64,000 nt of DNA from Bifidobacteriaceae bacterium (GTDB lineage Bacteria > Actinomycetota > Actinomycetes > Actinomycetales > WQXJ01): assembly GCA_031272885.1 (NCBI GenBank), contig JAISSX010000057.1, positions 62,001 through 126,000 of the forward strand, given 5' to 3'. The notes below the pieces were generated by a model that searched no databases, had not been told where the DNA came from, and was given only the letters and a program-made list of their open reading frames with translations. The translations under genes and the position numbers were made by a program. Positions 13,987 to 16,145 of this stretch are shown in pieces. How positions within the stretch are numbered: position 1 is the first letter of the stretch; each line of letters starts with the position of its first letter.

Positions 13987-14892
13987 ATGACCTTTTCCAG
14001 TGGTGGAAAGTTCCAGGGCGGCCGGGTGCAGCGTGGCGCCAGCGGGCGCACCGGGGTGGCGGTGGGCGGCATCGGCGGCCTGGCGGTAATAGCCCTGGTG
14101 GTGCTGCTGAGCGGCGGCAACCTGGGGGACGTGTTCAACGCCATCGGCGGTACCAGCGGGCTGACGGGATCGGTGCAGCCGGGGGACGCGCAGACCGGCT
14201 GGGTGGAGGAATGCACCGCCGAGGAAGCCAACACCGACCGCCAGTGCCGGCTCAACGCCACTGTGCAGTCGCTCGATGCTTATTGGACTGAGGCTTTGCC
14301 GGACCAGGCCGGCGTCAAGTACACCGAACCGCCGGTGGTCTCGTTCGACGGGACGGCCTCGACGCCGTGCGGCACCGCGTCATCGTCCACCGGGCCGTTC
14401 TATTGCCCCAGCGACCAGACCATCTACATCGACGTCTCGTTCTACGACGAGCTGCAGCAAGAATTCGGGGCCGAGGGCGGGCCGCTGGCCGAAGAATACG
14501 TGGTGGCACACGAGATGGGGCACCACATTGAAAACCTGACCGGGGCGTTGGAGGAGGCTTCAGGGAGCGGCACCGGGGCCGAATCGGATTCGGTGCGGAT
14601 CGAGCTGATGGCTGACTGCCTGGCCGGCATGTGGGCCGGGGCCGCCGCCACCACGGTTGACCCCGACACCGGGGTGACTTTCCTGGAGCCGATCACCGAC
14701 CAGCAGTTGGCGGAGGCGCTCGATGCCGCGGCGGCCATCGGTGACGACAAGATCCAGGAAGAGATGCAGGGCAAGGCCGATCCGGATAGCTTCACCCACG
14801 GGACGTCAGCCCAGCGCGTGAAGTGGTTCAAGGTGGGCTACACCAAGGGCACCCTAGCGGCCTGCAACACCCTGGACGCCGACAGCCTCTAA
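13987..14892 (+). CDS. Membrane-anchored neutral zinc metallopeptidase (YpfJ family)
   Basis: 301 residues. A short cytoplasmic Gly/Arg-rich N-terminus (MTFSSGGKFQGGRVQRGASG) is followed by one transmembrane helix at about 26-42, so the catalytic domain is outside the cell. The zinc motif HEMGHH starts at His175, with Glu176 as general base; a downstream Glu in ELMADCLAGMW is the likely third ligand. FYCPSDQTIYID and SAQRVKWFKVGY are also family-typical. Substrate unknown. It stands alone between mutM and the repeat island. Confidence 0.88.
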   Translation: MTFSSGGKFQGGRVQRGASGRTGVAVGGIGGLAVIALVVLLSGGNLGDVFNAIGGTSGLTGSVQPGDAQTGWVEECTAEEANTDRQCRLNATVQSLDAYWTEALPDQAGVKYTEPPVVSFDGTASTPCGTASSSTGPFYCPSDQTIYIDVSFYDELQQEFGAEGGPLAEEYVVAHEMGHHIENLTGALEEASGSGTGAESDSVRIELMADCLAGMWAGAAATTVDPDTGVTFLEPITDQQLAEALDAAAAIGDDKIQEEMQGKADPDSFTHGTSAQRVKWFKVGYTKGTLAACNTLDADSL

Positions 14893-14917
14893 CCGGTCAT
14901 CCCGGTCACCAATGCCT

Positions 14918-15000
14918 GTCATCCCGGGCTTGACCCGGGATCTAACTACCGAAGGCGCGCTGAGCGGTAGATCCCGGATCGCCTGCGGCGTCCGGGATGA
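14918..15000. repeat. REP-like palindromes (two units)
   Basis: The first unit is ATCCCGGG-cttga-CCCGGGAT (14921-14941). The second is ATCCCGGA and TCCGGGAT arms (14971-14978 and 14991-14998) around a 12-base loop. They resemble the ATCCCGGG-type dispersed palindromes found outside genes in many GC-rich bacteria. A reverse-complement copy of the first unit occurs at 39244-39269. The 25-base stretch before 14918 holds no gene. Confidence 0.7.
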
Positions 15001-15010
15001 CGAATGGGTT

Positions 15011-15128
15011 ACTGGGGACGGTTCGGCGTTACGGGGGACGGCTCGGCGTTACGGGGGACGGTTCCGTGTAACATGTGGCGGCACGCCGCAACATGTTACA
15101 CGGAACCGTCCCCCGTAACGCCGAGCCG
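15011..15128. repeat. 20-bp tandem repeats leading into a 38-bp perfect hairpin
   Basis: A 20-base unit of the form acGGGGACGGctCGGCGTT is repeated at 15011-15030 and 15031-15050, with a third partly diverged copy at 15051-15070. Arms 15039-15076 and 15091-15128 are perfect reverse complements over 38 bp, with a 14-base GC-rich loop. The right arm runs into the remnant antitoxin reading frame. It looks like a mobile repeat of the GGGGACGGTTC type; no transposase is present. Confidence 0.82.
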
Positions 15129-15236
15129 CCGAAACGCCAAAGCCTGGCGGAGTTGCTGCGCATGGACGAGGACATCGATTTCGGAGACGAGGATATCCCG
15201 ACCCTGGGCCTAGGTTTGCAGGTGGTGGAGTTCTGA
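15093..15236 (+). pseudogene. VapB-like antitoxin remnant whose N-terminus is replaced by repeat DNA
   Basis: The frame ending TGA at 15234-15236 encodes RQSLAELLRMDEDIDFGDED and IPTLGLGLQVVEF, which resembles the acidic toxin-binding tail of VapB/Phd-type antitoxins. The TGA overlaps the vapC ATG by one base, the usual coupling of these pairs. Upstream, the only in-frame ATG (15093) lies in the right arm of the 38-bp hairpin, so the first dozen codons come from the repeat and no DNA-binding domain is left. No ribosome site precedes it. The call is a truncated antitoxin; translation from within the hairpin is possible but unproven. Confidence 0.62.
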
Positions 15237-15643
15237 TGCGCTACTTGTTGGACACCAACGTTCTAAGCGAAGCCCGTAAACACCGCCCGGAATCGAAGGT
15301 CGTAGCTTGGCTCGAAAGCTGCCCATCCGACGACCAAGCCATCAGCGTCATCACGGCGATGGAACTCAAGGTTGGCGTGCTGCGCAAGGCCCGCAAGAAT
15401 CCCCTGGCAGGCGCCTACCTGGAACGTTGGTTCCATGCCGTCATGGAAGCTTTCGACGGCCGGGTTCTTCCGGTCGACTTGGCTACCGCCTGGCGCATCG
15501 CGCCACTCTACGTGCCGGACCCGGCACCTGAGCACGACGCCATCATCGCCGGCACGGCCCTGACCCATGGCTTGACGGTGGTGACGCGCAACGACCGTGA
15601 CTTCACCCGCATGGGCGTGCCGGTCCTCAACCCTTGGCTGTAG
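15236..15643 (+). CDS. vapC: VapC-family PIN-domain toxin
   Basis: 135 residues, normal length for a PIN toxin. Acidic metal-binding positions are visible in LLDTNVLSE (Asp6), VITAMELKVG, PEHDAIIAGTAL and TRNDRDF. These nucleases cleave tRNA or rRNA and are neutralised by the upstream antitoxin. GGTGGAG gives a good ribosome site before ATG 15236. The gene is intact although the antitoxin in front of it has lost its N-terminal region to a repeat, so either the residual antitoxin tail still binds, another antitoxin acts in trans, or the toxin is silent. Confidence 0.85.
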   Translation: MRYLLDTNVLSEARKHRPESKVVAWLESCPSDDQAISVITAMELKVGVLRKARKNPLAGAYLERWFHAVMEAFDGRVLPVDLATAWRIAPLYVPDPAPEHDAIIAGTALTHGLTVVTRNDRDFTRMGVPVLNPWL

Positions 15644-15650
15644 ACCTAAC

Positions 15651-15684
15651 CGGGCGTCATCGGGCACCGGGCGTCATCGGGCAC
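15651..15684. repeat. Two tandem copies of a 17-bp unit
   Basis: CGGGCGTCATCGGGCAC occurs twice without a gap, directly after the vapC stop codon (15641-15643) and before the stop of the opposite-strand gene at 15711. It adds to the repeat island around the toxin. Function unknown. Confidence 0.75.
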
Positions 15685-15710
15685 CGAGGCCGTAGAGGGA
15701 CCAAGACACC

Positions 15711-16145
15711 CTACGGGGTGGGCCAGTCGTCGCCGGCCGCCAGGCGTAGGGCCACCAGGTCCTTCAGGTCGATGACGTCGCCATCGCGCCCGCCGCGGCC
15801 TATCACCAGCGGCGGCGGTTTGGGCGTCAGTTCGGTGGGGCGGAACCGGGCCAGCATGCCGCCGGCCACTCGCAGTTCGTAGAAGCCGCCCTCGGTGTCC
15901 ACCCCAAGGGAGCTGTCCCGCCGCAGGTACCAACCGGTCACCGTGGTGGGGTAGCGCCCGGTGCCCTTGTCGGAGCGCGCCACCAGGCGCTGCACCTTGA
16001 TGCCTTGAGCCAGGGCGGTGGCGGCGAACTCGGCCAGGACGCGGCCGGCGGCGGCGGCCTCGGTGGCGGCAGCGCGGGCCAGGGCCTCGGCGTGGACACG
16101 GGCAGCCTCGCGCCGCCCCTCCGTCCACTCGGCCCGCTCGCTCAT
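15711..16145 (-). CDS. Hypothetical protein
   Basis: About 144 residues from ATG 16145 (an ATG nine bases upstream is equally possible). I do not recognise the family. The N-terminal third is an Ala/Glu/Arg-rich helix (EGRREAARVHAEALARAAAT). The rest looks like a small beta domain with GRYPTTVTGWYLRRD, FYELRVAGGMLARFRPTELT and GDVIDLKDLVALRL, soluble and without signal peptide. It is divergent from the penicillin-binding protein gene and convergent with vapC. The codon pattern is like its neighbours, which is the main reason to believe it is real. Confidence 0.6.
   Translation of the reverse strand: MSERAEWTEGRREAARVHAEALARAAATEAAAAGRVLAEFAATALAQGIKVQRLVARSDKGTGRYPTTVTGWYLRRDSSLGVDTEGGFYELRVAGGMLARFRPTELTPKPPPLVIGRGGRDGDVIDLKDLVALRLAAGDDWPTP

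Follow-up and report, generated by a model that had tools for sequence, protein, structure and literature searches.

An intact vapC behind a REPIN-like repeat: a fitAB-like vapBC module apparently broken and probably left as a silent relic

How does an intact VapC toxin gene persist when only the tail of an antitoxin precedes it? The question arises in a 64,000-nucleotide stretch of a Bifidobacteriaceae genome (the window, that is, the whole stretch of DNA that was analysed), where a long palindrome, an antitoxin-like tail and vapC follow one another (Table 1). The original prediction proposed that the palindrome had replaced the DNA-binding part of a VapB antitoxin, and that a toxin left in this state should be harmful unless the tail alone neutralised it, another antitoxin existed or expression was lost.

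Table 1. Features of the vapC locus, in window coordinates
Feature	Position	Strand	Details
Putative neutral zinc metallopeptidase, upstream gene	13987–14892	+ (same as vapC)	Pfam Zn_peptidase, E = 8e-69
Second, different dispersed palindromic repeat	14905–15003	.	CATCCCGGGCTTGACCCGGGATC...GTCCGGGATGAC; 41 matches, mostly halves, in own genome
Two 20-bp partial outer repeat units	15008–15047	+	GTTACkGGGGACGGyTCGGC; direct repeats, spacing 20, running into the palindrome
REPIN-like palindromic repeat	15039–15128	.	44-nt arms, 2 nt between arms; core GTTACGGGGGACGGTTCCGTGTAACATG...CATGTTACACGGAACCGTCCCCCGTAAC
Frame of the original prediction	15075–15236	+	53 aa from GTG 15075; first 18 codons repeat-derived; includes ATG 15093
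Putative antitoxin C-terminal remnant, PKRQSLAELLRMDEDIDFGDEDIPTLGLGLQVVEF	15129–15236	+	33–35 codons; profile of relatives' tails and alignments
24-codon frame from ATG 15162	15162–15236	+	GGCGGAG before ATG; anti-SD duplex -6.5 kcal/mol; outside the hairpin
vapC ribosome-binding site (GTGGTGGAGT region)	15222–15231	+	anti-SD duplex -10.6 kcal/mol; mean unpaired probability about 0.5
FitB-like VapC (PIN ribonuclease) toxin, intact	15236–15643	+	135 aa; PIN domain, conserved positions, FitB match

The toxin retains all of the features expected of its class. It contains a Pfam PIN domain (E = 3e-13), in which the conserved acidic/catalytic and TRN positions are all kept, and its closest solved chain is FitB (E = 5e-18). 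Its relatives occur in several phyla and on plasmids, with identities of up to 52–55% (best, 55%), and the nearest paralog in the same genome is 45% identical. The start of vapC overlaps the end of the antitoxin-like tail as TGATG, and both the intact toxin and the start-stop overlap of the original prediction were thus borne out. The FitB-like VapC, the operon order and the tail placed directly upstream with its TGATG overlap are those of the type II VapBC/FitAB modules, which combine a PIN toxin with Phd/YefM, RHH or AbrB antitoxins. Unlike these modules, the present one has an antitoxin without the DNA-binding/dimerisation head and without the tail arginine, and it has no recognisable promoter. 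A PADLOC search found nothing.

To place the locus among its relatives, we counted 115 VapC loci that had a near-complete toxin and enough upstream DNA. A frame of antitoxin length (at least 70 aa) precedes vapC in 113 of them, and a full-size antitoxin in 112, with locus L092 left out of the latter count. In all seven of the plasmid-borne relatives looked at (50–52% identity), a frame of 84–89 aa lies before vapC, annotated as Phd/YefM in six and as hypothetical in one. The closest relatives carry Phd/YefM heads or RHH heads on similar tails, and the lost head was probably, though not certainly, of the Phd/YefM type. At our locus, no trace of an antitoxin head was seen in the three forward frames read at 14893–15128; as judged from the sequence, the DNA-binding/dimerisation head is missing. 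The palindrome lies exactly where this head belongs, in agreement with the proposed replacement. No relative with the same short antitoxin was found, nor any upstream frame continuing into a full antitoxin.

The remaining loci depart from this pattern. L070 and L089, both from Rhizobiales, code for antitoxins that have lost their N-terminal part (62 and 47 aa) and precede an apparently intact VapC; the upstream DNA that was read showed no such repeat. In L092 (genome G014 of the same bacterial family, 1150–1520), the frame of an IS30-type transposase leads straight into an antitoxin tail, which adjoins an extended VapC; this junction may reflect either a genuine insertion or a false join in the assembly. 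Among the relatives searched, none was an ortholog close enough to serve as the uninterrupted locus (best VapC identity, 55%). The upstream metallopeptidase gene provided no synteny anchor, since none of the other 17 family genomes gave a match to it at E ≤ 1e-20. In the same-genus genome G001 (69% complete), synteny is unreadable, because the contig that carries the downstream PBP gene begins within it.

The arms of the palindrome, 15039–15082 and 15085–15128, pair at 43 of 44 nucleotides, with one mismatch at arm position 39, and include the perfect 38-bp inverted repeat that had been claimed. Folded alone as RNA, the palindrome reaches -90.6 kcal/mol, and the folding of 15000–15260 gave z = -11.4 versus shuffled sequences. 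Rfam returned only microRNA models below threshold on the palindrome, which any long hairpin would be expected to attract, and a single weak match elsewhere. The second dispersed repeat stands back to back with the palindrome, between the metallopeptidase gene and vapC, and the two adjoining repeats at 14905–15128 suggest an insertion hot spot.

The palindrome belongs to a large family of repeats. Across the 2.95-Mb assembly, we counted 174 occurrences of the 13-nt core CGGAACCGTCCCC and none of the reversed control, and a search with the 90-bp element returned about 76 candidate places in the genome. In 27 aligned copies, the common sequence is GTTACnGGGGACGGTTCCGyGTAAC...GTTACrCGGAACCGTCCCCnGTAAC, with a variable inner stem. 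The inner stems are self-complementary within copies at 163 of 189 pairs, while shuffling the partners among copies gave a mean of 98 and a maximum of 135 (0 of 5000 shuffles reached 163), a statistic that is inflated by relatedness inside repeat subfamilies. The two outermost nucleotides of the arms also match (45 of 54; shuffled mean, 30). The inner stems of this alignment form several subfamilies, which differ in sequence and are each still self-complementary. In the copy before vapC, both arms equal the exact consensus core of the family, which is consistent with a young copy. In this genome (G000), the contig starts with the repeat are those of C1, C3, C8, C9, C15, C22–C25, C27, C31, C33, C36, C44 and C46.

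We found here a dispersed inverted doublet that forms a hairpin, with conserved arms and a covarying inner stem. In REPINs, a variable inner stem stays self-complementary between conserved arms (PMC3116915). The family thus resembles the Pseudomonas GI–GIII REPINs and the GTAG-/CGTC-tagged REPs in its high copy number, dispersed inverted doublet, long hairpin, conserved arms and self-complementary inner stem, and in its clusters with partial tandem copies. It differs from them in its arm, GTTACnGGGGACGGTTCCGyGTAAC, which has no obvious GTAG/CGTC tag, and in the lack of a match to the RAYT transposase domain Y1_Tnp (PF01797) at E ≤ 0.01 in the 95% complete assembly, the missing part of which could hold one. 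Because no RAYT was found, we call the repeat REPIN-like rather than a REPIN. Among the genomes of the bacterial family, it was seen in just one besides its own, from the same genus and with weak matches. There, an incomplete copy directly precedes an RHH-type antitoxin that is followed by a VapC-like frame (G001:C148; L185, 1023 onward). In the genome studied, another copy starts about 10 nt past the stop of a second vapC, the 45% identical paralog with a complete RHH antitoxin (G000:C31; L183, 389–901). Searching papers for the core sequence as text returned two matches, both unrelated.

The tail between the repeat and vapC had been described as VapB-like and toxin-binding. It does resemble antitoxin tails, though weakly: against a profile of the relatives' tails, it ranked third of 2001 with its own shuffles (two of 2000 shuffles scored higher), and among the window's 1377 reading-frame fragments it came first (E = 0.02). 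Its position, its length, the TGATG overlap and an S-L/I-x-x-x-L...DIDF pattern agree with those of the relatives' tails. The 53-aa frame as a whole had no Pfam or NCBIfam match. There is neither R nor K in the last 18 residues of the tail, where 111 of 113 relatives have an R. In the Shigella VapBC complex, the antitoxin tail inserts an arginine into the active site of VapC, and FitAB is reported to make a similar contact (PMC3384007). The tail is therefore probably a non-functional remnant, no longer able to plug the active site. The loss of the arginine is no proof of inactivity, since L093, whose VapC is 52–53% identical, also lacks it and yet has a full antitoxin.

The frame before vapC opens after a TAA at 15069 and offers four in-frame starts, GTG 15075, ATG 15093, TTG 15153 and ATG 15162, so that ATG 15093 is not the sole ATG, as had been stated. 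This codon lies in the arm sequence CATGTTACRCGGAACCGTCCCC (CATGTTAC), which is conserved in the repeat family, and it therefore came with the repeat and is not a vapB start. Within the hairpin, GTG 15075 is buried (mean unpaired probability, 0.08) and ATG 15093 partly so (0.32), whereas ATG 15162 lies beyond it with a moderate SD (-6.5 kcal/mol); any translation of the tail would thus be as likely to use the 24-codon frame as the 53-codon frame. Control of vapC translation by the hairpin had also been suggested. As vapC has a good ribosome-binding site of its own about 95 nt past the hairpin, such gating is not obvious from the predicted folding and is unsupported.

The promoter and operator of a type II module sit immediately before its antitoxin gene, so that loss of the head would have taken both with it. 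A scan of 14750–15750, of a kind that covers actinobacterial promoters poorly, recognised neither a sigma-70-like promoter nor an intrinsic terminator. The paradox of an unprotected toxin would thereby dissolve: the toxin need not be harmful if its promoter was lost along with the antitoxin head.

The main alternative is a working minimal antitoxin, in which the tail alone, translated from GTG 15075, ATG 15093 or ATG 15162, binds and inhibits VapC, and autorepression alone has been lost. The open tail frame, the preserved TGATG coupling and the intact toxin would fit such an antitoxin, as would the position of ATG 15162 outside the hairpin, with its moderate SD, and the truncated antitoxins of L070 and L089. 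Single-domain antitoxins that consist of the neutralising part alone do exist (PMC10440598), and the tail shares with them, and with isolated Phd-C, a neutralising-type region without a DNA-binding domain; unlike them, it probably arose by truncation and lacks the usual arginine, and its neutralising activity is putative. In another system, Phd-C in isolation failed to neutralise its toxin, while a SUMO-fused Phd-C succeeded (PMC10440598), so that a stabilising partner may be needed. Given also the lack of R/K in a region where nearly all relatives have an R, and the position of two of the three starts inside the -90.6 kcal/mol hairpin, we consider a working tail unlikely. A more elaborate version, in which the repeat has become the new 5' end of the antitoxin, and repeat codons plus tail encode a minimal antitoxin that does not repress and is translated under the hairpin's control, seems most improbable; if true, it would turn an autoregulated toxin-antitoxin module into one controlled by a mobile hairpin.

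A second alternative is protection in trans, in which the antitoxin of another module in this genome neutralises VapC. The genome does encode other VapC/PIN modules with Phd or FitA-type antitoxins, and an interaction of VapC21 with the non-cognate VapB32 is reported (PMC7517352). Against this stand the distance of the nearest VapC paralog (just 45% identity) and the absence of an orphan among the Phd and FitA-type antitoxins examined in the genome: six Phd hits each have a toxin-like frame beside them (a weak seventh, in C80 with E = 0.07, is excluded), and both FitA-type RHH hits (C17 and C31) adjoin VapC hits. The other antitoxin envisaged by the original prediction was accordingly not found, and we regard rescue in trans as very unlikely. 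We give similarly little weight to an assembly artefact, in which a false join at the repeat built the contig and the real antitoxin head is located at another place. The repeat troubled the assembler, as 15 of the contig starts C1–C48 have the core motif within 700 bp, and it seems to break the assembly there. However, the only exact occurrences of the outer-arm 14-mer GTAACGCCGAGCCG in the genome are the two in the arms of the copy before vapC, so that both halves of the palindrome belong together; arm matching inside copies, inner as well as outer, greatly exceeds that of shuffled partners (0 of 5000); and none of the Phd or FitA-type hits examined is a head cut off by the repeat. A chimeric join inside the repeat is disfavoured on these sequence grounds. 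That the tail is a chance open frame, and that vapC never had an antitoxin here, is scarcely credible: the weak similarity, with its two better-scoring shuffles, leaves some room for it, but the fit to the relatives' tails in position, length, overlap and pattern, and the first rank among the 1377 frames, argue against it.

We therefore favour, with a probability of roughly 0.6, the reading that a fitAB-like vapBC module was broken by the REPIN-like repeat, leaving vapC as a probably silent, recent relic. An ancestral type II module, its antitoxin most likely bearing a Phd/YefM-type head, would have suffered the insertion of the palindrome, or recombination between copies of it, and the head, promoter and operator would have been deleted together. 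Left behind would be the short antitoxin tail, probably unable to plug the VapC active site, and the intact vapC, which may be silent or expressed weakly by read-through from the upstream metallopeptidase gene. A silent vapC would be harmless, and could still be intact because the event would be recent. Against a relic stands the preservation of the toxin, the tail frame and the TGATG overlap, none of which would survive pure decay in the long run; the intact vapC thus implies that the event was recent, which fits the consensus-perfect arms, or that some low-level protection remains.

The disruption, probably recent, of a known kind of module by a known kind of repeat appears to be real, and the locus is most likely an ordinary broken toxin-antitoxin module rather than a new kind of control. 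It documents a high-copy REPIN-like family in a genome in which no RAYT was detected. The present locus, L070 and L089, together with the IS30 junction of L092, suggest that antitoxin decapitation recurs, and a survey could show whether the tails suffice. The locus is a natural test of whether VapC can persist without an antitoxin head.
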